From assembly GCA_002256995.1 (NCBI GenBank), contig NCGX01000016.1:1-57009 (forward strand): 57,009 bases of DNA, written 5' to 3'. Position numbers and translations under genes: made by a program. Under the pieces are notes generated by a model. The model had not been told where the DNA came from. It did no database searches and worked only from the letters and a program-made list of their open reading frames with translations. Source of the stretch: Hydrogenophilales bacterium 16-64-40. GTDB lineage: Bacteria; Pseudomonadota; Gammaproteobacteria; Burkholderiales; Thiobacillaceae. Shown in pieces: positions 476 to 33,897 of the stretch. Positions within the stretch are counted from its first letter, which is position 1. Each line of letters starts with the position of its first letter.

Positions 476-667
476 TTAGGCGAGGCGGCAAGGGGTGATG
501 TCGGCGGTATCGACCAGCACTTCGCCGTTTTCGATCTTCAGCGGATGTTCGGCGAGGGCGCATGGCTTGCCCTTGATGCAGTCGCCCGATTCGCCGCTGA
601 ATTCCCAGTCGTGGTGGGTACAGGTCAACACCGTGCCATGGAAGCGCGCATCGGCCAGCGGATCATT
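476..667 (-). pseudogene. 5'-truncated Rieske [2Fe-2S] protein remnant
   Basis: The frame encodes the second half of a small Rieske ferredoxin: DPLADARFHG, then the CTHHDWEF ligand motif (C-x-x-H), then GKPCALAEHPLKIENGEVLV. The first ligand pair, C-x-H, which should lie just before the DPLAD stretch, is missing. At that point the sequence runs into the last codons of the haemoglobin gene in another frame, and no start codon with a ribosome site fits. I read this as a deletion that removed the 5' half of a Rieske gene and fused the rest to the haemoglobin stop. Without the first Cys/His pair it could not hold a Rieske cluster. A programmed frameshift fusion with the haemoglobin is a less likely alternative. 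Confidence 0.65.
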
Positions 668-1064
668 CCGGCTGGTTGCGCATGAAATCCGCGGTCTTGA
701 AGAAGGCGGCCTGCAGTTCCGTCTGCAGGGCGGCCTCAAGTTCCCGGTCCTGCATGGCGCGCTGCATGCATCCCAGCCACTGGTCGCGCTTGCTCACGCC
801 GATGGCAAAGTGCGCGTGACGGCGGCGCAGGAATGGCTGACCGACGTGCTCGGCGAACAGCGCGGGTCCGCCCGTCCACTCGCTGAGAAACCAGAACAGC
901 TTGTTGCGGGATTCGGCCAGGTCCGCGGGATGCAGTTTGCGGATGCCGTAATAGTCGGGGTCCTCGTCCATCAGGTCGTAGAAGCGATCGACCAGTTCGC
1001 GCACGCCTTCCGCCCCGCCGAGACGGCCGTAATGGGGATTGGCAATGACGGTCTCAGCGTTCAT
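663..1064 (-). CDS. Group II truncated haemoglobin
   Basis: A 133-residue haem protein of the trHbO type. Visible hallmarks are LGGAEGVRELVDRFYDLM near residues 15-32, the proximal His at about residue 83 in RRRHAHFAIGVSKRDQW, and the Trp of the G helix just after it. Group II truncated haemoglobins bind oxygen very tightly or detoxify NO and peroxide. The gene lies 97 nt behind a hypothetical gene transcribed from a sigma-54 promoter and ahead of sodB, so oxygen or NO control during nitrogen fixation is the likely job (inference). The stop codon overlaps the Rieske remnant. Confidence 0.9.
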   Translation of the reverse strand: MNAETVIANPHYGRLGGAEGVRELVDRFYDLMDEDPDYYGIRKLHPADLAESRNKLFWFLSEWTGGPALFAEHVGQPFLRRRHAHFAIGVSKRDQWLGCMQRAMQDRELEAALQTELQAAFFKTADFMRNQPE

Positions 1065-1161: not shown

Positions 1162-1752
1162 TCAAACCGGACGGTTCTCGTTGGGGTTGCGCACCGGACC
1201 CATGACGGCCAGGCCTTCCTCGTAGCTCATGGTGGGGAAGGTGTCGGAAAATTTCAGCGCGGTCTCGGCGATTTTGTCCACCTTGCCGGCCGAATTCAGA
1301 CGCTTGAGGTCGATGCGCTCCAGGTACAGCAGATCCAGCAGTTCGTTGTAAACCGTCGCTTCGTCGATGGGCAGCACATAGAACGTCGCGCCGCGGTAGG
1401 GGACCTGATAGCGCGTGCTGAGATCGATGTTGTTGCAGAACAGGAAGTACTTGCCCTCTGGCGTCAGGGTGGAACCCATCGCGTCCGCCAGCGGTTTCAG
1501 GTATTCGAAGGAAAGCAGATAGGCCGCCATGAAATCGAGTCCCGGCTTGCCTTCATGCGCCACGGCGATCACCTGATCGGCCGTAAGCTCCGGCGGGCGC
1601 GCTTCGTCTGCATACTGCGGCGCGAACTTGATGGCGATTTCGCCACGAAATCCGAAGCGGCCGGCTTCGCCGGTGGCGTCCTTGAATACCGGATTCTGCA
1701 AGCGCTTATCGGCATCGAGTTGTTTGAAGGCGGTCTGGTCTAGCGTGGTCAT
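1162..1752 (-). CDS. Hypothetical protein, first gene of the NifA-linked defence operon
   Basis: A 196-residue soluble protein with no signal peptide, membrane segment or cofactor motif that I recognise. It starts MTTLDQTAFKQLDADKRLQN, has a DFMAAYLLSFEYLKPLADAMG helix region and ends NPNENRPV. There are few cysteines. It is the promoter-proximal gene of the unit that continues with the truncated haemoglobin and sodB. A good sigma-54 promoter lies 48 nt upstream and a NifA-type site further up. From this I infer a role in oxygen, NO or redox protection of nitrogenase; the sequence itself gives no biochemical clue. Confidence 0.8.
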   Translation of the reverse strand: MTTLDQTAFKQLDADKRLQNPVFKDATGEAGRFGFRGEIAIKFAPQYADEARPPELTADQVIAVAHEGKPGLDFMAAYLLSFEYLKPLADAMGSTLTPEGKYFLFCNNIDLSTRYQVPYRGATFYVLPIDEATVYNELLDLLYLERIDLKRLNSAGKVDKIAETALKFSDTFPTMSYEEGLAVMGPVRNPNENRPV

Positions 1753-1799
1753 GGTGGGCTCTTTGCAAAAGTTGAAGGGGTTTCGATCAAGCTTGCTGC

Positions 1800-1815
1800 A
1801 GCAAGAGCAATGCCA
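1800..1815 (-). promoter_or_regulatory. Sigma-54 promoter for the hypothetical-haemoglobin-sodB operon
   Basis: On the minus strand the sequence is TGGCATTGCTCTTGCT. It has the required GG-N10-GC spacing and matches the TGGCAC-N5-TTGCW consensus at nearly every conserved base. It lies about 48 nt before the ATG at 1752. The TGT-N10-ACA site at 1883-1898 is at a suitable upstream distance. Confidence 0.8.
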
Positions 1816-1882
1816 GCAGCGCCAACAATCCTAAGTCCATGATCCGGCACCGAAATGCCGGAATCTCACGCCGCACGCTCCG

Positions 1883-1898
1883 TGTCATGAATGCGACA
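1883..1898. promoter_or_regulatory. NifA upstream activator site
   Basis: TGT-CATGAATGCG-ACA fits the NifA consensus TGT-N10-ACA exactly. It is about 70 bp upstream of the minus-strand sigma-54 promoter at 1800-1815 and about 230 bp from the plus-strand one, so it probably serves mainly the defence operon. Confidence 0.7.
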
Positions 1899-2032
1899 AA
1901 AGGCGCGTTCTGTTGGGCTGTGGTCTGCAAGGCCCCGTCGTCGAAGCACATCACGCACGGTTCGCCATGGGGCGCGGCGGGGGCCGGCCCATGGCTTGAC
2001 GCGACTGCGCCCGGAAAAAACAGCAGCGCCTT

Positions 2033-2048
2033 TGTCGCAAAACAGACA
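2033..2048. promoter_or_regulatory. NifA upstream activator site
   Basis: TGT-CGCAAAACAG-ACA fits TGT-N10-ACA exactly. It lies about 80 bp upstream of the iscS sigma-54 promoter, the usual distance for NifA acting through DNA looping. Confidence 0.75.
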
Positions 2049-2126
2049 AAGCCTACACGGGCGGATCCCGCCCAGTCAGGCAATTTTGTTATGTCTATTC
2101 AAGCGCTTATCACTATTTATCAGACA

Positions 2127-2142
2127 TGGCACATGAGTTGCT
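2127..2142 (+). promoter_or_regulatory. Sigma-54 promoter of the isc operon
   Basis: TGGCACATGAGTTGCT matches the sigma-54 consensus at all conserved positions with exact GG-N10-GC spacing. It lies 70 nt before the iscS start. Together with the NifA-type site at 2033-2048 it places the whole Fe-S operon under nitrogen-fixation control. Confidence 0.9.
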
Positions 2143-2211
2143 TTTAGTCAGGCATGACCGGCGGCGCACCATGCCGCCCCCACAACGCAAGCCAACCCGA
2201 GCGAGACGTTC

Positions 2212-3423
2212 ATGCCCAAGGTACCCATCTATCTCGATTACTCCGCGACCACGCCGATCGACCCGCGCGTGGCGGAAAAGATGATCCCGTACCTGACGGA
2301 AAAATTCGGCAACCCGGCCTCGCGTTCGCACGCCTTTGGCTGGGATGCGGATCAAGCCGTGGAGCAGGCGCGCGAAGAGGTCGCGGGGCTGGTGAACTGC
2401 GATCCCAGGGAAATCGTCTGGACGTCGGGTGCAACCGAGTCGGACAACCTCGCCATCAAGGGCGCGGCGCAGTTCTACAAGGGCAAGGGCAAGCACCTGA
2501 TCACCGTGCGCACCGAACACAAGGCGGTGCTCGACCCGATGCGCGAACTGGAACGGCAGGGCTTCGAAGTCACCTATCTCGATCCCGAGCCGAGCGGGCT
2601 GATCGATCTGGACAAATTCACCGCCGCCATCCGTCCCGACACCATCCTCGCCTCGGTCATGCACGTGAACAATGAGATCGGTGTGATCCAGGACATCGAC
2701 ACCCTCGGCGAACTCTGCCGTGCCAGGGGCGTGCTGTTCCATGTGGACGCGGCGCAGTCCACCGGCAAGGCGCCGATCGACCTTGGCCGTCTCAAGGTGG
2801 ACCTGATGTCGTTCTCTGCCCACAAGACTTACGGCCCCAAAGGCATCGGCGCCCTGTACGTGCGGCGCAAGCCGCGCATCCGCATCGAGGCGCAGATGCA
2901 CGGCGGCGGCCACGAGCGCGGCATGCGTTCCGGCACGCTGGCCACGCACCAGATCGTCGGCATGGGCGCAGCCTTCCGCATCGCCGCAGAGGAAATGGCG
3001 ACCGAGAACGAACGCATCCGCATGCTGCGCGACAAGCTGTGGGCCGGCATCAGCAGCATGGACGAAGTGCACCTCAACGGCGACATGCAGCGGCGCGTGC
3101 CGCACAACCTCAACGCGAGCTTCAATTTCGTCGAGGGCGAATCGCTGATGATGGCGATCAAGGATCTCGCGGTCTCCAGCGGCTCGGCCTGTACCTCGGC
3201 CAGCCTGGAGCCGTCCTACGTGCTGAAGGCGCTGGGCCGCAACGACGAGCTGGCGCACAGCTCGATCCGCTTCTCCATCGGCCGTTTCACCACCGAGGAA
3301 GAAATCGACTACGCCGTGCAGCTGCTCCACAAGCACGTCGGCAAGCTGCGCGATCTGTCGCCATTGTGGGACATGCACTGCGCCGGCGTAGACCTGAATT
3401 CCGTGCAATGGGCCGCACATTAA
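2212..3423 (+). CDS. iscS: Cysteine desulfurase, IscS type
   Basis: PLP enzyme (403 aa) that removes sulfur from L-cysteine and hands it to the scaffold IscU. The PLP Lys is at about 205 in [11 protein letters not shown]. The sulfur-carrying Cys is at about 327 in [14 protein letters not shown], the long-loop form that separates IscS from NifS. The N-terminus [20 protein letters not shown] and the length match IscS. It is the first gene of an isc operon driven by a sigma-54 promoter. A separate true nifS lies at 21345, so this strain has two desulfurases in one nif region. Confidence 0.95.
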
Positions 3424-3531: not shown

Positions 3532-3954
3532 ATGTCTTACAGCGACAAGGTACTGGACCATTATGAAAATCCCCGCAACGTCGGGGCGCTCGAAGCGGAC
3601 GACGAATCGGTGGGCACCGGCATGGTCGGTGCCCCGGCCTGCGGCGACGTGATGAAGCTGCAAATCAAGGTGAACGACGACGGCATCATCGAGGAGGCAC
3701 GCTTCAAGACGTACGGCTGCGGTTCGGCCATCGCCTCCAGCTCGCTGGTGACCGAATGGGTCAAGGGCAAGACGCTGGATCAGGCGCTTGAGATCAAGAA
3801 CACCGCCATTGCCGAGGAACTGGCGCTGCCGCCGGTCAAGATCCACTGCTCGATTCTGGCCGAGGACGCGATCAAGGCCGCGGTCGCCGACTATCGCAAC
3901 AAGCACGAAGTCGTCAGCGCCGGCTATGCAGCTTGCGATCCGGCTGCCGCCTGA
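3532..3954 (+). CDS. iscU: Fe-S cluster assembly scaffold IscU
   Basis: Scaffold (140 aa) on which [2Fe-2S] and [4Fe-4S] clusters are built. The three ligand cysteines are at 37 (GAPACGD), 63 ([10 protein letters not shown]) and 106 ([12 protein letters not shown]). The LPPVK motif recognised by the chaperone HscA is at 99-103. The start is the ATG behind a strong GGAGGT ribosome site. It is IscU-like in length, without the extra domains of NifU, and no nifU is present elsewhere in the window. It may therefore be the scaffold for nitrogenase Fe-S clusters here (inference). Confidence 0.96.
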
Positions 3955-3977: not shown

Positions 3978-4325
3978 ATGGACATGCAGACGACAGCCAG
4001 CCCCATCATCTTTACCGATGCGGCTGCAATCAAGGTCAAGGAAATCATCCTGGATGAAGGCAATGCCGCGCTCAAGCTGCGCGTCTCCGTTTCCGGCGGC
4101 GGCTGTTCCGGCTTTCAGTACGGCTTCAGCTTCGACGAGAACAGCGCTGCGGACGATACCGTGGTGGAGAACTGCGGCGTCACGCTGCTGGTCGATCCGA
4201 TGAGCTACATGTACCTGATGGGTGCCGAGATCGACTACAAGGAAAGCCTCGAAGGCGCGCGCTTCGTGATCAACAACCCGAATGCCGTGTCGACCTGCGG
4301 CTGCGGCGAATCGTTTTCGGTGTAG
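3978..4325 (+). CDS. A-type Fe-S carrier (ErpA/IscA family)
   Basis: A 115-residue A-type carrier that passes Fe-S clusters from the scaffold to target proteins. The three cysteines that bind the cluster are visible in [12 protein letters not shown] and in the C-terminal STCGCGESF motif. The N-terminus and the FSFDEN.. segment resemble ErpA more than IscA. It follows iscU by 23 nt and is followed by a second A-type gene after 10 nt. The start is the ATG behind GAAGGAG. Confidence 0.9.
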
Positions 4326-4335
4326 GGGAGGGGAC

Positions 4336-4659
4336 ATGGCTATCACGCTGTCGGAACGCGCCGCCAACCGGGTGCAAAAATTCCTCGACCAACGCGGCAA
4401 GGGGGTTGGCCTGCGCCTGGGCGTGCGCACCAGCGGCTGCTCCGGCATGGCCTACACGCTTGAGTTCGTGGACGAAACCCTGCCCGATGACATTGCCTTC
4501 GTGTCCTACGGCGTCACCGTGCTGATCGATCCCAAGAGCCTGACCTTCCTCGAAGGCACCGAACTGGATTTCGTGCGTGAAGGCCTGAACGAAGGCTTCA
4601 AATTCAACAACCCCAACGTGAAGAATTCCTGCGGCTGCGGCGAAAGCTTCAACGTATAG
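4336..4659 (+). CDS. iscA: A-type Fe-S carrier IscA
   Basis: A 107-residue carrier with the IscA pattern: [13 protein letters not shown] at the start, [14 protein letters not shown] in the middle and [11 protein letters not shown] at the end, giving the three conserved cysteines. The region upstream of the chosen ATG has a GGGGAGGGG ribosome site. It sits between the ErpA-like gene and hscA. With the nif-type IscA at 18614, the window holds three A-type carriers. Confidence 0.93.
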
Positions 4660-4668
4660 GAGAACAGC

Positions 4669-6537
<1,869 letters not shown>

Positions 6538-6545
6538 GGAACCTA

Positions 6546-6884
6546 ATGCCGCAAATCATCGTACTGCCGCATGCCAGCCTGTGTCCGGACGGCGACGCGC
6601 TGGATGCCGCAAGCGGCGCCACCATTTGCGACAGCCTGCTCGCCGCTGGAATCGAACTCGACCATGCGTGCGAACAATCCTGCGCCTGCACCACGTGCCA
6701 TATCATCGTGCGCGAAGGATTCGCCTCCCTGAATGCATCCACCGAAGTGGAAGACGACCTGCTCGACAAGGCATGGGGCCTGGAGCCGCAATCTCGCCTC
6801 GCGTGCCAGGCCATCGTCGACGGCACCGACCTGGTGATCGAGATTCCCAAGTACTCGATCAACATGGTCAAGGAAGGGCATTGA
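6546..6884 (+). CDS. fdx: ISC-type [2Fe-2S] ferredoxin
   Basis: A 112-residue adrenodoxin-type ferredoxin that supplies electrons for cluster assembly. Four ligand cysteines are visible: HACEQSCACTTCH gives C-x5-C-x2-C, and the fourth is in RLACQ. The C-terminal VIEIPKYSINMVKEGH is typical of isc-operon Fdx. It follows hscA after 8 nt and closes the operon; iscX is not present behind it. Confidence 0.95.
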   Translation: MPQIIVLPHASLCPDGDALDAASGATICDSLLAAGIELDHACEQSCACTTCHIIVREGFASLNASTEVEDDLLDKAWGLEPQSRLACQAIVDGTDLVIEIPKYSINMVKEGH

Positions 6885-14857: not shown

Positions 14858-16501
14858 ATGAAGGGTGGAGATATGGGTGCGATATCAGAGCATGAGACGG
14901 GCATGGAACTCACAACTATCTATGAAATCAGCAAGATACTGAGTTCATCCCTGGACCTGAACAAGACGGCGCGGGACGTGCTCGGCGTGCTGTCCTCGCA
15001 TCTCAAGATGCGGCGGGGCATGGTCAGTTTGGTGCAGCCATCCGGCGATCTGCACGTTGTTGAGGCAACCGGCATGTCCGCCGAGGCGGCCCGCCGGGGG
15101 CGTTTCCGCAAGGGCGAGGGCATTACGGGCAAGATCCTTGGGACCGGCATGCCCATGGTGGTGCCGGATGTGGCGAAGGAGCCGCTTTTCCTGAATCGAA
15201 CCGAGTCCCGCAGCCTGGCGGAAGGGCGCGTCGTTGCCTTTATCGGCGTGCCGATCAAGGTCGGACGGGAAACCGTTGGCGTACTGAGCGTCGACCGTGA
15301 AATGGACGGCGAGCCGGGCAATTTCGAGGCCGATGTGCGCTTCCTGGCCATGGTGGCGAATCTCATCGGCCAGACCACCCGCCTGCACGACAGGGTGGCT
15401 GCCGAGCGCGAGGAACTGATGCAGCGACAGCATCGCCTGCAGAAGGAATTGCAGGGCAAGTACAGCCTGGACAACGTCATCGGCCACAGCAAGCGCATGC
15501 AGGATGTTTTCGCCGAAGTGCACCAGGCAGCGCCAGGCAAGTCGACCGTTCTGCTGCGCGGCGAAAGCGGCACCGGCAAGGAAGTCATCGCCCGCTCGGT
15601 TCACTATCTGAGCCCGCGCAAGGGCGCGCCGTTCGTCAAGGTGAACTGCGCTGCGCTGTCCGAAACGCTGCTCGAATCCGAATTGTTCGGCCACGAAAAG
15701 GGATCGTTCACCGGAGCGACCCAGGAACGTAAAGGTCGCTTCGAAATGGCCCAGGGCGGCACCCTGTTCCTGGATGAGATCGGAGAGATCTCGCCGATGT
15801 TTCAGACCAAGTTGCTGCGCGTGCTGCAGGAGCGGGAATTCGAGCGGGTGGGCGGCAACAAGTCGATCAAGGTGGACGTGCGCCTGATCGCGGCCACCAA
15901 CCGCAATATGGAAGAGGATGTGGCCAAGGGCACATTCCGCGCCGACCTCTACTACCGCGTCAACGTGGTGAGCATCTTCCTCCCCCCATTGCGCGAGCGA
16001 CGCGAGGATATTCCGCCGCTCATTGAGCATTTTCTGGACAAATTTAACAAGGATAACGATCGCAAGCTTTCCATTACGCCGGCCGCGATGGCGGTGATGC
16101 TCAAGTGCAACTGGCCGGGCAATGTGCGCGAGTTGGAGAATTGCATCGAACGTACCGCGACAATGACGCGGACCAGCACGATCCAGGATGTGGACTTGCC
16201 GTGTCAGCAGAACAAGTGTTTTTCGCAGGTGCTGCAGCACTATGGTGAGGCGCAGCAGGTGATACCTATCGAGCTGGCCGGTCACGTTTCTGTTGCTGGC
16301 TCGCCGCTGGCCTCAGGCAGCGATATTGCTGAAGCCAATGCGGGCACCGAGCCGACGCACATGACCGAACGCGAGCGTCTGGTGTGGGCAATGGAGCAGT
16401 GCGGGTGGGTGCAGGCGAAAGCCGCGCGCCTGCTGAACCTGACGCCGCGCCAGATCGGTTACGCACTGTCGAGATACAACATCGAAGTCAAACGTCTTTA
16501 A
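14858..16501 (+). CDS. nifA: Nif-specific transcriptional activator NifA
   Basis: A sigma-54 activator of 547 aa. A GAF domain occupies about residues 25-175. The AAA+ domain has Walker A GESGTGKE (235-242) and Walker B GTLFLDEIGE (301-310). The C-terminal helix-turn-helix is about 505-545 (QAKAARLLNLTPRQIGYALS). Cys417, Cys429, Cys449 and Cys454 form C-X11-C-X19-C-X4-C, the motif that makes NifA oxygen-sensitive and independent of NifL; no nifL is seen. The sigma-54 contact loop reads GSFTGA instead of GAFTGA. A second ATG at 14873 is also possible. NifA should activate the sigma-54 promoters listed elsewhere in this window. Confidence 0.96.
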   Translation: MKGGDMGAISEHETGMELTTIYEISKILSSSLDLNKTARDVLGVLSSHLKMRRGMVSLVQPSGDLHVVEATGMSAEAARRGRFRKGEGITGKILGTGMPMVVPDVAKEPLFLNRTESRSLAEGRVVAFIGVPIKVGRETVGVLSVDREMDGEPGNFEADVRFLAMVANLIGQTTRLHDRVAAEREELMQRQHRLQKELQGKYSLDNVIGHSKRMQDVFAEVHQAAPGKSTVLLRGESGTGKEVIARSVHYLSPRKGAPFVKVNCAALSETLLESELFGHEKGSFTGATQERKGRFEMAQGGTLFLDEIGEISPMFQTKLLRVLQEREFERVGGNKSIKVDVRLIAATNRNMEEDVAKGTFRADLYYRVNVVSIFLPPLRERREDIPPLIEHFLDKFNKDNDRKLSITPAAMAVMLKCNWPGNVRELENCIERTATMTRTSTIQDVDLPCQQNKCFSQVLQHYGEAQQVIPIELAGHVSVAGSPLASGSDIAEANAGTEPTHMTERERLVWAMEQCGWVQAKAARLLNLTPRQIGYALSRYNIEVKRL

Positions 16502-21348: not shown

Positions 21349-22493
21349 CGGACACCAACATTTATCTGGACAACAACGCCACCACGGCGCTGGCGCCCGA
21401 GTGCGTGGAACCGGTGCTGGCCTGCCTGCGCGACAGCTACGGCAACCCGTCCAGCAAGCATGCCGTCGGCGAGCGTGCCAAGGCGCAGGTGATGCAGGCC
21501 CGCGCATCGGTGGCGCGGCTGCTGAATGCGGCACCTGCCGAGATCGTGTTCACCGCCAGCGGCACCGAAGCCAATCACCTGGCGATCGCGGGCGCGCTGG
21601 CGGCACGTCCGGGCAAGCTTCATGTGGTGGTCAGTGCGGTGGAACATCCGTCCACCCTGGATTTGCTGGCGCATCTGGAAGCGACCGGCCTCCGCGTCAC
21701 GCGCTTGCCGGTCGATCGGGACGGAATGCTCGATCTCGCGGCGCTTGAGCAGGCGATCACGCCGGACACCGCGCTGGTATCGCTGATGTGGGCCAACAAC
21801 GAAACCGGCGTGCTGTTTCCGATCGCGGAAGCCGCGCAGATTGCCCGCTCCCGCGGGGTTCTGTTTCACACCGATGCGGTGCAGGCGGCAGGCAAGATCC
21901 CGCTCGACCTGGCGCAGGTGCCGGTCGATCTGCTTACGCTGGCCGGGCACAAGTTCCACGCGCCCAAGGGGTTGGGGGCCCTGTTCGTGCGCAAAGGCCT
22001 GAAGCTGCAGCCCATGCTGTTCGGCCATCAGGAGCGCGGCCGCCGCGGCGGCACCGAGAACGTCCCAGCCATTGTCGGCATGGGCGTGGCCTGCGAACTC
22101 GCGGCACGCGAACTGGACGCCAAAGCCGTGGCGATGGCGGCCCTGCGGGACCGGCTCGAAACCGGCGTGCGCCTGCGCATTCCCTGCGCCCGCATCAACG
22201 GCGGCACCGCGTTGCGGGCCGGCAATACCAGCAGCGTGCGCTTCGGCGAACTGCCGGCAGAGGCCATCCTCGACAAGCTGGACAAGACCGGCATCTGCGC
22301 CTCGTCCGGCGCGGCCTGCACCGCCGGCGGCAGCGCGCCGTCCCATGTGCTGACAGCCATGGGGCTGAGCGAGGCCGAAGCGCTGGCGACGGTCCGCTTT
22401 TCCTTGAGCCGGTATACGACCGAAGCCGAAATCGACCACGTGATCGATGCATTGGCTGCAATTTTGAAACGCATGACCGCCGAGGCGGCTTGA
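21345..22493 (+). CDS. nifS: Cysteine desulfurase NifS
   Basis: Nitrogenase-specific desulfurase (382 aa). It starts MTDTNIYLDNNATT. The PLP Lys is at 203 (LAGHKFHAPKG) and the active Cys at 325 (ASSGAACTAGGSAPSHVL), the short-loop NifS form. Its usual partner NifU is not in this window, so it may feed IscU of the isc operon or NifB directly. This is distinct from IscS at 2212. Confidence 0.95.
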   Translation: MTDTNIYLDNNATTALAPECVEPVLACLRDSYGNPSSKHAVGERAKAQVMQARASVARLLNAAPAEIVFTASGTEANHLAIAGALAARPGKLHVVVSAVEHPSTLDLLAHLEATGLRVTRLPVDRDGMLDLAALEQAITPDTALVSLMWANNETGVLFPIAEAAQIARSRGVLFHTDAVQAAGKIPLDLAQVPVDLLTLAGHKFHAPKGLGALFVRKGLKLQPMLFGHQERGRRGGTENVPAIVGMGVACELAARELDAKAVAMAALRDRLETGVRLRIPCARINGGTALRAGNTSSVRFGELPAEAILDKLDKTGICASSGAACTAGGSAPSHVLTAMGLSEAEALATVRFSLSRYTTEAEIDHVIDALAAILKRMTAEAA

Positions 22494-24833: not shown

Positions 24834-25700
24834 ATGAAAAAGACCGACACCCTGCTGAACGAAATCATTTCGCACCTGGAAGTGGGCGGCATCGTCCCCT
24901 ACCTGGGGCCGGGGGTGCTCGATCTGATTCCGGGCGGCAGCCCGGTTCCCAATTCTCCCGCGGCGCTGGTGCAGCATCTGGTGGCGAAATCGAGCGTGCC
25001 GTTCAAGATACGCGGCAACCTCACCGCCACCGCGCAGTACATCGAGAACTTCAAGCACCGCAAAACCCTAGTGGGGCATATGGCGGAAGCCTTTGCCCCC
25101 GAGGTGCCGCCCACCGTCCTGCATGAGTACCTGGCGAGCATCGTGCGCAAGCCCCTGCTGATCGTCGACGCCTGGTACGACAACGCCATGGCCACGGCCC
25201 TGCAGTTGCGCAACCTGTGGGGGCAGCTGCAAGGGGTGAGCCAGTCCGAGCATTTCGGCACCTGGGTGCATTACTTCCGGCCCAACGGCATGCAGGCCGA
25301 CCCCTTCGAGGCGGACACCTGGGACACCCTGCTCTACAAACCCATGGGCTCGATCGCCCCGGCCAAAAACTTCCTCGTGTCCGACACCGATTTCGTCGAA
25401 GTGCTCACCGAGATCGACATCCAGACCCCGATCCCCGACATCGTCCAGCAGCTGCGCAGCGACCGCCATTTCCTCTTTCTCGGCTGCCGCTTCCGCACCC
25501 AACTGGAGCGCACCTTCGCACGCCAGATCATGAAGCGTTCTTCCGACACCCACTGGACAGTGCTGCCGGGCGAACTCAGCCGCAACGAAGCGCGCTTCCT
25601 GGAAGAGCAGAACATCCAGCGCATCGACATGCCGCTTGATGAATTTGTCGGGCTGCTGGCCGGCGAAGAGCAGGTGGAAAAGCTGGCCGTTGCCGTCTGA
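24834..25700 (+). CDS. SIR2-like domain protein, last gene of the nifB operon
   Basis: A 288-residue protein with SIR2_2-like outlines: GGIVPYLGPGVLDLIPGG (Gly-rich nucleotide loop), LLIVDAWYDNAMATAL (in place of TTNYDxxLE), LLYKPMGSIA (in place of KLHGS) and HFLFLGCRFRTQLERTFARQ. Active SIR2-family NADases keep an Asn, Asp and His in these positions. Here the His of the LHG motif is replaced, so activity is doubtful. Members occur in nif clusters of other proteobacteria. It is paired with a 70-residue protein. A hairpin follows the stop codon. Confidence 0.78.
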   Translation: MKKTDTLLNEIISHLEVGGIVPYLGPGVLDLIPGGSPVPNSPAALVQHLVAKSSVPFKIRGNLTATAQYIENFKHRKTLVGHMAEAFAPEVPPTVLHEYLASIVRKPLLIVDAWYDNAMATALQLRNLWGQLQGVSQSEHFGTWVHYFRPNGMQADPFEADTWDTLLYKPMGSIAPAKNFLVSDTDFVEVLTEIDIQTPIPDIVQQLRSDRHFLFLGCRFRTQLERTFARQIMKRSSDTHWTVLPGELSRNEARFLEEQNIQRIDMPLDEFVGLLAGEEQVEKLAVAV

Positions 25701-28845: not shown

Positions 28846-29124
28846 TCATCCGCACCTGCCGCAGCTCGATCTTTGCGAATTGAAGCACTTTTCGATGTTA
28901 TAGAACGTCTCGGACCCAAAGATATTGAAGCAGCCCGCGTACCAGCAGTATTTAGTTCCGTTTTCGCAGCCTTCTAGGTAACAGAAAACAAGCCAGCGAT
29001 ATTCCTTCAGCCATTGAAACTGATAGCACCACTTGGTCACTGTCCTAGTGCATGTGCGGAACCATTGCCACGGCCAATATCCTGGGCACCAATATCTCTC
29101 GGTAACTTCTACCTGCTGAGCCAT
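28846..29124 (-). CDS. Small Cys/Trp/Tyr-rich protein
   Basis: A 92-residue protein with 10 Cys and 8 Trp. Segments include RYWCPGYWPWQWFRTCTRTV, WCYQFQWLKEYRWLVFCYLE and YCWYAGCFNIFG. No signal peptide is seen. The ATG lies behind GAAGGAAGAAG, which supports translation. Base composition is clearly lower in G+C than the neighbours. It lies 196 nt upstream of the lipoprotein gene on the same strand and may share its transcript. I do not recognise the family; a disulfide- or metal-stabilised small protein or a secreted peptide is possible. Confidence 0.6.
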   Translation of the reverse strand: MAQQVEVTERYWCPGYWPWQWFRTCTRTVTKWCYQFQWLKEYRWLVFCYLEGCENGTKYCWYAGCFNIFGSETFYNIEKCFNSQRSSCGRCG

Positions 29125-29685: not shown

Positions 29686-30477
29686 TCAGGCTGCCGTCGC
29701 CAGCATTTTCTTTTCAACCCCGCGCAGCAGGCGCAAACACTCGATGGTGGCGGCCATGTCCAGCGCGCTGAAACCGTCCTGGGTTTCGAGTTGCGGGTTG
29801 GCGCCGGCGGCCAGCAGCGCTTCCACCACGGCATGCTTGCCGGTGGAGGCGGCGTACATCAGGCAGGTGGCGCCATTGTCGTTCTGGTGGTCGAGGTCGA
29901 TGCCGGCGCGGATGAGCAGGTCCATGGTTTCCAGGCGCTCGCCCACGCAGGCCATCCACAGCGCATTGTTGCCGTCGATGTTGACGGCGGCCAGATTGGT
30001 GCCGGCCTGCAGCAGTTCGAAAATGGCGCCGGTCTCGCCCGCTTTGCTGGCGCGCATCAGCGGGGTGATGCCGTTTGCAGCCGGGGTGTCGAGATCGTCG
30101 GTGGGATAGCCGTTTGCCTGCAGCCACTGCGCAAGTTGCGGGCTGATGACGGGCGGCGTCGTGCTTTTCTGCGCGCGCTGCCAGGCGGCGAAGCCGCCGT
30201 CCAGGCTGTAGACCTCGGAAAAGCCGAAGTCGGCGAACATCTGGCCGTAGGTCTGGCTGGCGTTGCCGTGGTAGCAGTAGAGCAGCACCGGCGTGGCCGT
30301 GGGCGTGCCGACGAGGAGGGCGTCGAGGTTGGCGCTGGATAGGCGGCGGGCGTTGGCGATGTGCGCCCGGTTGTAGTTGTCCGGGTCGCGCGAATCCAGC
30401 ACCAGCACCTTGTCGCGGGCAAGCAACTGGGCGGCGGTGGCGGGGTCGATGCGCTTGAAGCTTCTGTCTTTGCTCAT
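29686..30477 (-). CDS. Rhodanese-ankyrin repeat protein
   Basis: A 263-residue fusion. The N-terminal rhodanese domain (about 1-110) has the active loop LYCYHGNASQTYG with its Cys. The C-terminal half has ankyrin repeats (NGITPLMRASKAGETGAIFE, DGNNALWMACVGERLETMDL, NGATCLMYAASTGKHAVVEA). Rhodaneses move sulfane sulfur, and similar proteins are found in the nif regions of other diazotrophs. The start is chosen at MSKDRSF; it overlaps the stop of the upstream dehydrogenase gene (ATGA). No sigma-54 promoter is visible ahead of the pair. Confidence 0.87.
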   Translation of the reverse strand: MSKDRSFKRIDPATAAQLLARDKVLVLDSRDPDNYNRAHIANARRLSSANLDALLVGTPTATPVLLYCYHGNASQTYGQMFADFGFSEVYSLDGGFAAWQRAQKSTTPPVISPQLAQWLQANGYPTDDLDTPAANGITPLMRASKAGETGAIFELLQAGTNLAAVNIDGNNALWMACVGERLETMDLLIRAGIDLDHQNDNGATCLMYAASTGKHAVVEALLAAGANPQLETQDGFSALDMAATIECLRLLRGVEKKMLATAA

Positions 30478-32075
30478 GGGGTGTCCTCCATATCTGCGAT
30501 GCGGTCGGGGTAGGGCGGCAGGGTGGTGATGCGCGTATCGGTCAGCGCGCACCCCACGGTGAAGTGGTAAAGCGACTGGAAGCGCTTGCCTTGCAGTCCG
30601 AGCAGTTCGTGGAAGGCGTCGTCGAGAAAACAGCCGATGCCGGTGCCGCGCAGCGCCAGGGTTTCGGCTTCCAGATACAGCACGTGGCCGAGCAGGCCCG
30701 CTTCCCAGTGCAGCTGGCGGTAGCGCCAGGCGTCTTCTTGCACCTTGGCTTCGAACTCGGCCAGCATGCCCAGCGAGAAGCAGCTGTCGGCGGCGATCGA
30801 CTGCGCGCAGCTCACCGCGCGGGCGACCTTGTGCCACTTGCCTGCCTGCAGGCGATAGAGCGGCAAATGGCCGGGGCAGCCTTCGGCTTTCTGCCATTCG
30901 AATTCATCGCTCAATGCCTGCCGCAGTCTTGATTCGGCCCCGGCCTCGCGCACCAGGATGTACAGGCCTGGCGGCACGCCGTCCACGCGGTGCACGAAAA
31001 ACACCGGATGGATGGCGGGCGCGTAGTCCCAGATGTCCCACGGCGCCTGCGGGCGTGGCAGCAGGCTGTCGACCAGATGGTAGAAGTCGGCCGCGGCCAT
31101 TTCGAATTGCGGGTCGAAGCGCTGGGCGCTGCGCCGGCCCATGATGACTTCGGGCGCGGGAAGGTGGGTGGCGGCGCTGCCGGGCGGGTAATTGCGCGGC
31201 GGCGCGGCGGCCTCGTCATGCCTGCTTTCGGTGGCCGAGGCGACTTCGTCGATGACCGGCCAGTGGTACATGGGATGCGGGTCGAGGAGGTTGGCCTGGC
31301 CGCGCCAGTGGGTGTCGGCGGCGTCCCATGGCGCGGGTTCGGCAACCACCTGGGGCCGGGCCGGGTCGACGATCTGCGCGGGTCTTGTGAGTTGCACTAG
31401 CAGGTCCGGCTCCTCGCGCTCGGCATCGGCGTAGTCCTGGTCGCGCCCGGTGCCCAGCAGCGCAGCCAGGCGCCGGCTGTTGCAGCCGGCCACCAGGCGC
31501 AGTTCCCAGCCCAGCAGGGCGGCGGCGTAGCGTAGCGCGGCCAGCGCATGGCCGACGTCGAGCTGGCAATAGCGGAAGGCGCGCTCGCCGTATTTCCAGG
31601 CTTCGCGCCAGTGGATGGAAGACAGCCCGATCCACAGGCCGGGCGGGTGCGCCGCCGTGGAGAGGCAGCGCTGCTCCAGCGCGTGGTTGCGGCTGGCGTA
31701 GTGGTAGAGGCCGGCGTCCAGTCCCGCGACGCCGTGCGCGATCACATAGGCCTCGGTCGGGTGCAGGTTGCCGCTCGACGGGTTGCAGCGCAGCGCCCAG
31801 CGGTCCGGCCCGTATTCCTTCCAGGCGGACAGCCCGAGCGACAGCTGCAGCAGGGCGCCGATCGAATCCAGGGAGAATTCGGGCGCTGCCCGGTCTTCGC
31901 CGATATGAGCAAGCCGGCCCGCGCAAAGCGGCAGGCGGAAGGACGGGCAGCCCGCAAACGCGCGGAAGGGATCGGGCTGGCTGGTCCAGTCCAGCGTCTC
32001 CGGGCCGGAGGCATAGCGACCGGGCCGGTGCTTGGTGCGCTCGTGGTAGGCGATGGCGATGTCGGCGGCGTTCAT
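30474..32075 (-). CDS. SagB-type nitroreductase-fold dehydrogenase
   Basis: A 533-residue protein with two nitroreductase-like domains. The first includes RCNPSSGNLHPTEAYVIAHG, and the second contains PEVIMGRRSAQRFDPQFEM and ALRGTGIGCFLDDAFHELLG. SagB/ThcOx-type FMN enzymes oxidise azolines in peptide antibiotics, but many stand-alone double-domain proteins have other, unknown roles. No cyclodehydratase or precursor peptide gene is adjacent. It is translationally coupled to the rhodanese-ankyrin gene. Confidence 0.83.
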   Translation of the reverse strand: MNAADIAIAYHERTKHRPGRYASGPETLDWTSQPDPFRAFAGCPSFRLPLCAGRLAHIGEDRAAPEFSLDSIGALLQLSLGLSAWKEYGPDRWALRCNPSSGNLHPTEAYVIAHGVAGLDAGLYHYASRNHALEQRCLSTAAHPPGLWIGLSSIHWREAWKYGERAFRYCQLDVGHALAALRYAAALLGWELRLVAGCNSRRLAALLGTGRDQDYADAEREEPDLLVQLTRPAQIVDPARPQVVAEPAPWDAADTHWRGQANLLDPHPMYHWPVIDEVASATESRHDEAAAPPRNYPPGSAATHLPAPEVIMGRRSAQRFDPQFEMAAADFYHLVDSLLPRPQAPWDIWDYAPAIHPVFFVHRVDGVPPGLYILVREAGAESRLRQALSDEFEWQKAEGCPGHLPLYRLQAGKWHKVARAVSCAQSIAADSCFSLGMLAEFEAKVQEDAWRYRQLHWEAGLLGHVLYLEAETLALRGTGIGCFLDDAFHELLGLQGKRFQSLYHFTVGCALTDTRITTLPPYPDRIADMEDTP

Positions 32076-32088
32076 GGCAATGTCTGAC

Positions 32089-32158
32089 GTAGGAGCGGCG
32101 TCCACGCCGCGATTGTCCGTATGCGACCCACCCATCGCGGCGTGGACGCCGCTCCTAC
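32089..32158. repeat. REP-like inverted repeat with 25-bp arms
   Basis: Perfect 25-bp arms (starting GTAGGAGCGGCGTCCACGCC) separated by 20 nt. This type of extragenic palindrome is common in pseudomonads and betaproteobacteria. It lies just upstream of the dehydrogenase gene. Confidence 0.85.
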
Positions 32159-32187
32159 GACGATAACGGGATTCTTGAGCAGCCTGG

Positions 32188-32273
32188 GTAGGTTGGGCTG
32201 CCAAGCCCAACATTTCCTCATTCGCCGGGTAGTCCGCATTGTGTTGGGCTTCACTTCATTCAGCCCAACCTAC
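32188..32273. repeat. Pair of GTTGGGCT hairpins
   Basis: GTAGGTTGGGCT (32188-32199) and AGCCCAACCTAC (32262-32273) form the outer arms. Inside are two smaller hairpins of GTTGGGCT/AGCCCAAC. The unit resembles the widespread GTAGGTTGGGCTGA repeat of proteobacteria. A further palindrome, GCGTACATGTACGC, is at 32302-32315. The region from 32076 to 32336 holds no gene. Confidence 0.75.
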
Positions 32274-32336: not shown

Positions 32337-33251
32337 TCATTTCCCACTCCTTTGCGCCAAGGCCAGCAGCGCCTCGGTCTGCGTCTCGATGCGGCGCCGG
32401 ATTCCCTTGTCCAGCTTCTTCAGCCAATACCCGGGAATGCCGGCAACCCCATAGGCCGCGCCCGCCAGCATGCCGGCCAGCGCGCCGTTGGTGTCGGCGT
32501 CCTCGCCACGATTCACCACCTCGGTCACGCAGGATTCGAAACCGTCCGTGCGGAAGAAGGAGTGAAGAACCGTCTGTACCGTATCGACAATGTAGCCCGA
32601 AGCGCGTTTGGGATAGGGGTCGAAGCGGAACGCCGGAAAGTCTGAGATCAGACGATTCGCTTCCGCGCGGCAGCCCTTGATTCCACCGCCCTGAACCAGG
32701 GTTCGCGTCATCCTGCCGAGCGCCAGGGTCGCGGCGTCCGACAAGGGGTGGTGATGGGTGATATGGCATTGTTCCAGGCTCGCGCGGCTGAACGCGCCAT
32801 CGTCGTCAAGCGTCGCCAGCGCCAGCGGCAGGTTGCGCATGCAGGCGCCGTTGCCGGCATTGCCTTCCTGCGGCGAACCGGCCAGCGTGCCGTCCGTCAT
32901 GTAGCGCTGGATGCCGCGGCGGCAGGTGTTGCCCACATCCACCGGCCCGGCCCTGAACCAGGCCACGAAGGCATCGGCGGCAGCCGTCGCGTTCCAGCCG
33001 CCGCTGTCGATGAGCGACTGCCCCAGCGCCAGCGCCATCTGCGTGTCGTCGGTGGTCTGGCCCGGTTTGAGTTTGAGCCAGCCGCCGCCAACCATGTCGC
33101 GGTGCATGCCGTAGGCGTGCTGAATTTCGACGGGCGTCATGAATGCAACCGTTGCGCCCAGGGCATCGCCGACGGCGAAGCCGAGATAGGCGCCCAGTGC
33201 ACGTTCGTGTACTTCATCCGCTCTATGCCCCCGCAGCGCGGCAGCAGTCAT
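32337..33251 (-). CDS. draG: ADP-ribosyl-[dinitrogen reductase] hydrolase DraG
   Basis: Removes ADP-ribose from the Arg of NifH and so reactivates nitrogenase. The 304-residue protein has the binuclear metal motifs GQTTDDTQMALALG near residue 70 and RGEDADTNGALAGMLAGAAY near 255. The NifH at 34689 carries the target Arg102. The partner transferase gene draT is not present in this window. The start overlaps the stop of the receiver-like gene (ATGA). Confidence 0.9.
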   Translation of the reverse strand: MTAAALRGHRADEVHERALGAYLGFAVGDALGATVAFMTPVEIQHAYGMHRDMVGGGWLKLKPGQTTDDTQMALALGQSLIDSGGWNATAAADAFVAWFRAGPVDVGNTCRRGIQRYMTDGTLAGSPQEGNAGNGACMRNLPLALATLDDDGAFSRASLEQCHITHHHPLSDAATLALGRMTRTLVQGGGIKGCRAEANRLISDFPAFRFDPYPKRASGYIVDTVQTVLHSFFRTDGFESCVTEVVNRGEDADTNGALAGMLAGAAYGVAGIPGYWLKKLDKGIRRRIETQTEALLALAQRSGK

Positions 33252-33670
33252 GAAGCATGAATCGGAATGCCTGCGAGCTTGCGCCCCAGCATTCCATCGA
33301 CCCTTCTGCGCACGGTTTCCACCGTTAGCGGTTTCACCAGCAAGCCATCGATGCCCGCGCCTTGGCAGTCTGCCACCAGCGGATCCTCGCGGTTGTCGGC
33401 CACCAGCAGAATCTTCGCGCTGGTCAGGCGCGACCGGATAAGCGGCAACACATCCATCCCGCGCTCGCGCACGACATCGATGCCCAGCAGCAGCAGGTCG
33501 GGCTTCCACTCGATGCTCTTGTCGAAAGCCGCTTCGAGGCTGGACAGGTCATGGGTCTCGTTCTCGTCGTGCAGCATGAACTGCAGCGCCATGCGTGTGA
33601 TGTCGTCGTTGGCCACCACGAACAGGCGTTTGTTGTCCACCGCTTTTGCACTCTCTACGCCGATTTGCAT
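33248..33670 (-). CDS. Receiver-like (CheY-fold) protein coupled to draG
   Basis: A 140-residue single-domain protein: DNKRLFVVANDDITRMALQF, KPDLLLLGIDVVRERGMDVL (possible phospho-Asp in GID), LTSAKILLVADN and GIDGLLVKPLTVETVRRRVD (Lys of the receiver fold). No output domain. The start MQIGVESAKAV was chosen because the longer frame has no good ribosome site. It is the first gene after a sigma-54 promoter and is coupled to draG, so it may tune DraG or signal to it (inference). Confidence 0.8.
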   Translation of the reverse strand: MQIGVESAKAVDNKRLFVVANDDITRMALQFMLHDENETHDLSSLEAAFDKSIEWKPDLLLLGIDVVRERGMDVLPLIRSRLTSAKILLVADNREDPLVADCQGAGIDGLLVKPLTVETVRRRVDGMLGRKLAGIPIHAS

Positions 33671-33881: not shown

Positions 33882-33897
33882 TGGCACGCGCGTTGCT
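33882..33897 (+). promoter_or_regulatory. Sigma-54 promoter of the Rrf2-type regulator
   Basis: TGGCACGCGCGTTGCT is a perfect consensus match, 26 nt before the regulator ATG. It shows that the Rrf2-type gene belongs to the nif regulon. Confidence 0.88.

Follow-up and report, generated by a model that had tools for sequence, protein, structure and literature searches.

Divergent NifA/sigma-54-type promoters between a nif-linked isc operon and a globin gene group led by an unnamed nif-linked gene in Hydrogenophilales bacterium 16-64-40

The window analyzed here, a stretch of 57,009 nucleotides from contig NCGX01000016.1 of Hydrogenophilales bacterium 16-64-40, opens with two gene groups that face away from each other across a 459-bp gap, which lies between the start of an unnamed gene, designated hyp (position 1752, minus strand), and the start of iscS (position 2212, plus strand). 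The genes and sites on both sides of this gap, together with related features farther along the window, are listed in Table 1. The original prediction placed hyp, a truncated haemoglobin and sodB on one side and the isc genes on the other. The genes were found as predicted, except that sodB is cut by the contig start (its product scored 231.5 bits against a SodB model cut-off of 348) and is a putative member of the operon. A Rieske fragment between globin and sodB had not been part of the prediction.

Table 1. Genes and control sites of the divergent region and other features of the nif region
Feature	Position	Strand	Remarks
sodB, cut by contig start	1..426	-	PF00081, PF02777; putative operon member
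Rieske ferredoxin gene fragment, N-terminal part missing	479-658	-	between globin and sodB; intact homologue in L096 has PF00355
truncated globin	663-1064	-	PF01152, 115.8 bits against a cut-off of 21
hyp, 196-aa unnamed protein of nif-linked family	1162-1752	-	leads minus-strand operon
sigma-54 -24/-12 site facing hyp	1801-1815	-	TGGCATTGCTCTTGC; single departure from TGGCAC-N5-TTGC; in 8/8 head-to-head relatives
TGT-N10-ACA, NifA-type upstream site (UAS) of minus promoter	1883-1898		67 bp from its -24 end
TGT-N10-ACA, NifA-type upstream site (UAS) of plus promoter	2033-2048		78 bp from its -24 end
sigma-54 -24/-12 site facing iscS	2127-2141	+	TGGCACATGAGTTGC; exact match; in 8/8 relatives, one with an altered base
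iscS of nif-linked isc operon	2212-3423	+	TIGR02006 over cut-off
iscU	3532-3954	+	TIGR01999 over cut-off
erpA	3978-4325	+	NF010147 over cut-off
iscA	4336-4659	+	TIGR02011 over cut-off
hscA	4669-6537	+	TIGR01991 over cut-off
fdx	6546-6884	+	TIGR02007 over cut-off
composite promoter	7218		before nifV (7271)
nifA, presumed activator	14858-16501	+	TIGR01817, 751.5 bits against a cut-off of 528.85; 12.6 kb away
composite promoter	16674		before nifB (16773)
composite promoter	33882-33896	+	two UAS (33783, 33812)
composite promoter	34526		before nifH (about 34689)

Two sigma-54 promoters facing apart, with two exact TGT-N10-ACA sites between them, had been predicted for the gap, and both pairs were recovered, the predicted promoter coordinates being correct within one base. 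Each promoter contains the GG and GC of the -24/-12 element at the set spacing, and the two UAS are the only TGT-N10-ACA sequences in the gap. Neither type of site is distinctive by number within the window. Thus, TGT-N10-ACA alone was present 12 times as compared with 6.6 expected, a count that was reached in 4 of 100 shuffles, and shuffled sequence contained more -24/-12 matches (81.5, two mismatches allowed) than the window (60). In the whole genome, the simple -24/-12 pattern had 38 matches as opposed to 8 for its reverse. The 3.1-Mb genome was also scanned with a composite pattern (TGT-N10-ACA, 50–110 bp, TGGCAY-N5-TTGC) and with the reversed pattern as a control. The composite matched nine times at six promoters, all inside the nif region of the window and including both divergent promoters of the gap, and the reversed control gave no match. 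NifA is an enhancer-binding protein that acts with sigma-54 under nitrogen-fixing conditions, and an IHF site often sits between the UAS and promoters of this type.

Conservation of these sites was evident from comparison with other hyp loci. Relatives of hyp numbered 186, and the best 80 of these were studied as loci. Eight of the best 80 (L002–L009, with L004 from Sulfuriferula multivorans TTN) have hyp and iscS head to head and are referred to as isc-type relatives; L010 was placed outside the conservation count because of a short flank that contained neither iscS nor the sites. Both promoters and an exact copy of the UAS at 2033 were kept in all eight relatives. The UAS at 1883 was exact in five, differed by a single base in L007 and L009, and was not found at the corresponding place in L003. 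In an alignment of nine sequences, invariant columns made up 13 of 15 in the plus promoter, 10 of 15 in the minus promoter, 13 of 16 in the UAS at 2033 and only 1 of 16 in the UAS at 1883, with 55 of 397 invariant among all other columns. In the hyp tree, the nine isc-type proteins were separated from the others by a branch whose support of 94 is just below the mark.

The setting of hyp in the best 80 of 186 loci was more often opposite nifH (65 loci) than opposite iscS (8 loci), with neither gene within the stretch in 7. A globin gene was directly upstream in 39 of the 80 loci, and draT, draG and a nifO-like gene were present in 45, 42 and 40, respectively. Promoters were counted in the 73 loci with a divergent nifH or iscS, the seven of 80 without either being uncounted. 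A hyp-facing sigma-54 site with no more than one departure was noted in 69 of the 73, and 67 of these had a UAS 40–160 bp behind it, as compared with a mean of 1.38 sites (maximum 6) and of 0.02 sites with a UAS in a mononucleotide-shuffle control. In three of the 69 loci (L015, L055 and L062), the site was about 1 kb from the globin gene. Sites within one departure were absent from L025, L034, L068 and L079, and no hyp-facing sigma-54 site was seen in Bradyrhizobium L095, L128 and L129 or in the divergent loci L134, L136 and L139. In L128 and L129, hyp is downstream of fixA. In Bradyrhizobium BWA-3-5, hyp is opposite iscA-like, nifU-family and nifS genes, and the sigma-54 site faces the nifS side only. 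The arrangement in the window resembles divergent nif promoters at which nifHDK faces a draT-type operon, since these likewise combine -24/-12 elements with TGT-N10-ACA and since hyp leads the side opposite nifH in 65 of the 80 loci, but differs from them in that hyp is opposite a duplicated isc operon rather than nifHDK. A strict partnership of hyp with DraT/DraG was considered and rejected, as draT, although present in 45 of 80 loci, had no significant match in the window.

Dependence of a hyp homologue on nifA was noted in published data for Paraburkholderia phymatum STM815. The homologue of this strain, BPHY_RS38250 (Bphy_7752), is 58.5% identical to hyp of the window and faces nifH. In Table 1 of PMC8305402, Bphy_7752 has a log2 fold change of -11.54 in nifA-mutant nodules, as compared with -7.11 for Bphy_7751, -7.72 for Bphy_7750, -7.40 for nifH and -10.05 for nifD. 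The value for Bphy_7752 is the last finite one in the part of the table covered here, below which are genes without reads in the mutant. The locus tag Bphy_7752 appears once in the main text of PMC8305402, the one paper found to list it, and goes unnamed in the main text of two related papers (PMC5979394, PMC5748707). The -24/-12 site that faces hyp in P. phymatum is TGGTACGGATGTTGC, and no exact TGT-N10-ACA was found in the corresponding gap. The lead genes of P. phymatum and the window are homologous, and the former is strongly dependent on nifA according to the tabulated values (PMC8305402), but the genes that follow differ, being ankyrin-repeat and zinc-ribbon genes in P. phymatum as opposed to globin and sodB in the window.

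Control of both sides by NifA and sigma-54, as originally predicted, is well supported at the level of sequence by the results of the composite scan, conservation in all eight isc-type relatives and sites in 69 of 73 loci, together with the RNA-seq values of the homologue in a nifA mutant.

Searches with the protein encoded by hyp against Pfam (E up to 1) and NCBIfam (E up to 0.01) yielded no match. None of 46 family members scanned matched NCBIfam, and only stray Pfam matches were noted among these 46, namely PD40 in three (best E 0.00057) and DUF7063 in one. The alignment of the family (A1) comprised the window and 45 of the 80 loci. On ten plasmid records (five from Paraburkholderia, two each from Cupriavidus and Bradyrhizobium and one from Methylococcus), hyp is annotated in each case as 'hypothetical protein', and no account of the present arrangement of hyp, globin and isc genes was recognized in listings of open-licence PMC papers.

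The distribution of hyp was closely associated with that of nifK. Among carrier genomes of the best 80 of 186 relatives, a nifK match was present in 77 of 80 (48 of 50 and 29 of 30), with 74 of 80 over the model cut-off. An early reading, in which nitrogen fixation was absent from most betaproteobacteria with hyp, was therefore wrong. The three of 80 carrier genomes in which no nifK match was found were those of L002, L009 and L071, and the L071 locus itself contains nifH. In a survey of 399 genomes of the order to which the window belongs, hyp was detected in 41, nifK over the cut-off in 55 and both in 39 (Fisher p 1e-38). Of the 41 hyp carriers, nine had only distant matches (E 1e-20 to 1e-13) and one had a fragment. 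Two carriers lacked a nifK match over the cut-off, namely G160, which is the genome with the fragment, and G427, in which the nifK match was below the cut-off. Conversely, no hyp was detected in 16 of the 55 nifK genomes of this survey. The hyp family appears to be found almost only in nitrogen fixers.

The isc genes of the plus arm are a second copy of a set present elsewhere in the genome. The window set scored below the corresponding Nif models (457 bits against 530.75 for NifS and 141.3 against 273.3 for NifU). Homologues of its iscS, iscU, iscA, hscA and fdx that are 70–88% identical (79% for iscS and 70% for hscA) were found on contig C1, where ORFs recognizable by reading as iscR and hscB are also present. 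In contrast with this housekeeping operon, the window copy carries erpA and is without iscR before iscS, and with no more than 10 bp between iscA and hscA it has no hscB in place. No TGT-N10-ACA was found in the 14 kb read at the C1 copy, and the strand that encodes its isc genes had no sigma-54 site with one departure or fewer. Since window IscS shares 94% identity with IscS of L004 as compared with 79% with the copy of its own genome, the nif-linked copy probably arose before these lineages diverged. Like the NifU/NifS pair, the window set provides an additional, nif-linked sulfur donor and scaffold alongside the housekeeping genes, but it is of the IscS/IscU type with ErpA, IscA, HscA and Fdx. 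Second copies of the globin (73% identical, C43) and of SOD (94% identical, C32) were noted as well, and isc, globin and SOD, each with another genomic copy, are a nif-dedicated duplicate set. Farther along the window, another cysteine-desulfurase-like gene (21354-22454, plus strand) is 40% identical to window IscS.

Among isc-type relatives, hyp is followed by globin in 3 of 8 (L002, L004 and L005) and by sodB in only 2 of 8 (L004 and L005), and the conserved member of the minus arm is therefore hyp rather than sodB. In the remaining five (L003 and L006–L009), two small genes follow hyp instead; these had no Pfam match when tested in L007. The gap between globin and sodB is 236 bp in the window, 918 bp in L004 and 86 bp in L005, with Rieske remains within it in the window and L004. 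The contig starts inside sodB, and the position of the gene at this place is supported by L004 and L005. Rieske genes also follow hyp in Methylococcus, where the globin adjoining hyp is annotated as group II; in Bradyrhizobium such a gene adjoins hyp, and in L132 it is next to the globin.

The relationship of globins to hyp was examined in a tree of 46 hyp-linked and 26 unlinked globins (72 in total), from which rows with a stop or fewer than 95 amino acids and L082 (the window's own gene again) were left out; many forks were unresolved with 129 columns. A single clade of hyp-linked globins was rejected (AU p 0.000217), and globin and hyp therefore came together at least twice. Globins downstream of hyp were in two separate places in the tree, represented by the isc-type loci and by three genomes of family f37. 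Across the order, globins of any kind are widespread, being present in 159 of 250 genomes. In the genome of L003 (G271, with identical nifK and hyp coordinates), about 23 kb separate hyp from a related globin, which has a Rieske gene nearby; the 10 kb read around that globin contained no sigma-54 site. The repeated pairing of globin and hyp in these sequences is the best evidence here for what may be a shared task. The proposal that the minus arm is an oxygen-defence operon is partly supported: globin directly upstream of hyp in 39 of 80 loci and the separate origins of linked globins speak for it, whereas the low frequency of globin (3 of 8) and of sodB (2 of 8) among isc-type relatives speaks against it, and sodB is its weakest part.

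Together, these findings favor, with a probability of roughly 0.65, a divergent NifA/sigma-54 region with an isc arm and a hyp-globin(-sodB) arm in which one switch would both build and shield clusters. NifA presumably bound at 2033 would activate the plus promoter and thereby the nif-dedicated duplicate ISC genes, adding cluster assembly for nitrogenase, while NifA at 1883 would activate the minus promoter and expression of hyp, truncated globin and, by possible read-through, sodB. Products of hyp and the globin gene might then remove or sense O2, NO or superoxide at the sites of nitrogenase cluster assembly and use, a shielding role suggested by gene identity and repeated pairing. A more specific proposal, somewhat short of an even chance and so advanced tentatively, is that hyp encodes an unrecognized nif gene product, partnered by globin and in some lineages by Rieske proteins, that shields or loads nitrogenase clusters and that came to face a duplicated ISC operon in a Sulfuriferula/Thiobacillus-type lineage, giving a build-and-shield module under one NifA switch. 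Part of this tentative proposal is that hyp is among the most NifA-dependent genes of its hosts.

A truncated globin within a nif cluster is also a feature of the cyanobacterium Nostoc, the window globin being similar in this respect to Nostoc glbN, which lies between nifU and nifH; glbN is not known to be under NifA/sigma-54 control or to have a hyp partner.

Shielding by the minus arm has to be weighed against the view that hyp contributes to the maturation, electron supply or regulation of nitrogenase (e.g., by acting on NifH, together with DraT/DraG or by delivering clusters) and that globin and sodB are mere passengers of its promoter. This view is in agreement with the position of hyp opposite nifH in 65 and iscS in 8 of 80 loci, with draT following in 45, and with its position opposite iscA-nifU-nifS genes in Bradyrhizobium L095 and divergent L134, the flavodoxin-like gene that adjoins it in L134 and L135 and the 41 of 80 loci without globin directly upstream. 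It is nevertheless judged the less likely view, though a serious rival, given that globins came beside hyp at least twice, that Rieske genes recur near hyp or its globin and that draT has no significant match in the window.

Whether sodB belongs to the NifA transcript is a closer matter, and the alternative that it has its own promoter and is merely downstream is given almost even odds. Linkage in only 2 of 8 isc-type relatives argues for a separate sodB, as do the intervals from globin to sodB, which contain Rieske remains and measure 236 bp (window) and 918 bp (L004). On the other side are the gap of just 86 bp in L005, the 94% identical second SOD, which could be the housekeeping copy, and the result of a weak consensus scan, in which no sigma-70-like promoter or terminator-like site was found between 400 and 1752. 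Activation of the sigma-54 promoters by another protein such as NtrC, with incidental TGT-N10-ACA sites, is conceivable as sigma-54 promoters serve several activators, but is very improbable in view of the confinement of the composite to the nif region of the genome and the retention of its sites in relatives, and also of the dependence of the P. phymatum homologue on nifA in the tabulated data (PMC8305402).

Of greater interest in the window are the unnamed family of nif-linked proteins, whose genes have NifA-type promoters, and the nif-linked ISC duplicate. The ways in which nitrogen fixers assemble O2-sensitive clusters and keep them from damage are of practical concern, for example in moving nitrogen fixation into plants. 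In this regard the hyp family is a concrete candidate that tracks nifK, has NifA-type promoters in several bacterial families and met globins repeatedly, and the duplicated ISC set shows that in nature ISC-type genes can take the place of NifU/NifS under control of apparent NifA type.

Several other genes were noted in hyp loci. Divergent relatives of hyp that are about 30% identical (L134:2071-2718 and L135:5182-5865) adjoin flavodoxin-like genes; L134 is from the genus and L135 from the family of the window, and hyp of L134 is also opposite iscA-nifU-nifS-like genes. The two small genes that follow hyp in five isc-type relatives (L007:6652-6960 and L007:6965-7267, products without a Pfam match) are downstream of nifK in other places. 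Within the window, a draG-like ADP-ribosylglycohydrolase gene (32355-33254, minus strand; PF03747) is 51% identical to a draG. A SIR2-like protein (24834-25700, plus strand; PF13289) has a similar ORF cluster in 12 hyp loci, and a SIR2 family gene adjoins nifT in Bradyrhizobium L095. A 92-aa ORF rich in Trp, Cys and Tyr (28846-29124, minus strand) may not be a gene, and a Nitroreductase-family protein (30474-32213, minus strand; PF00881) has a similar ORF cluster in 13 other hyp loci.
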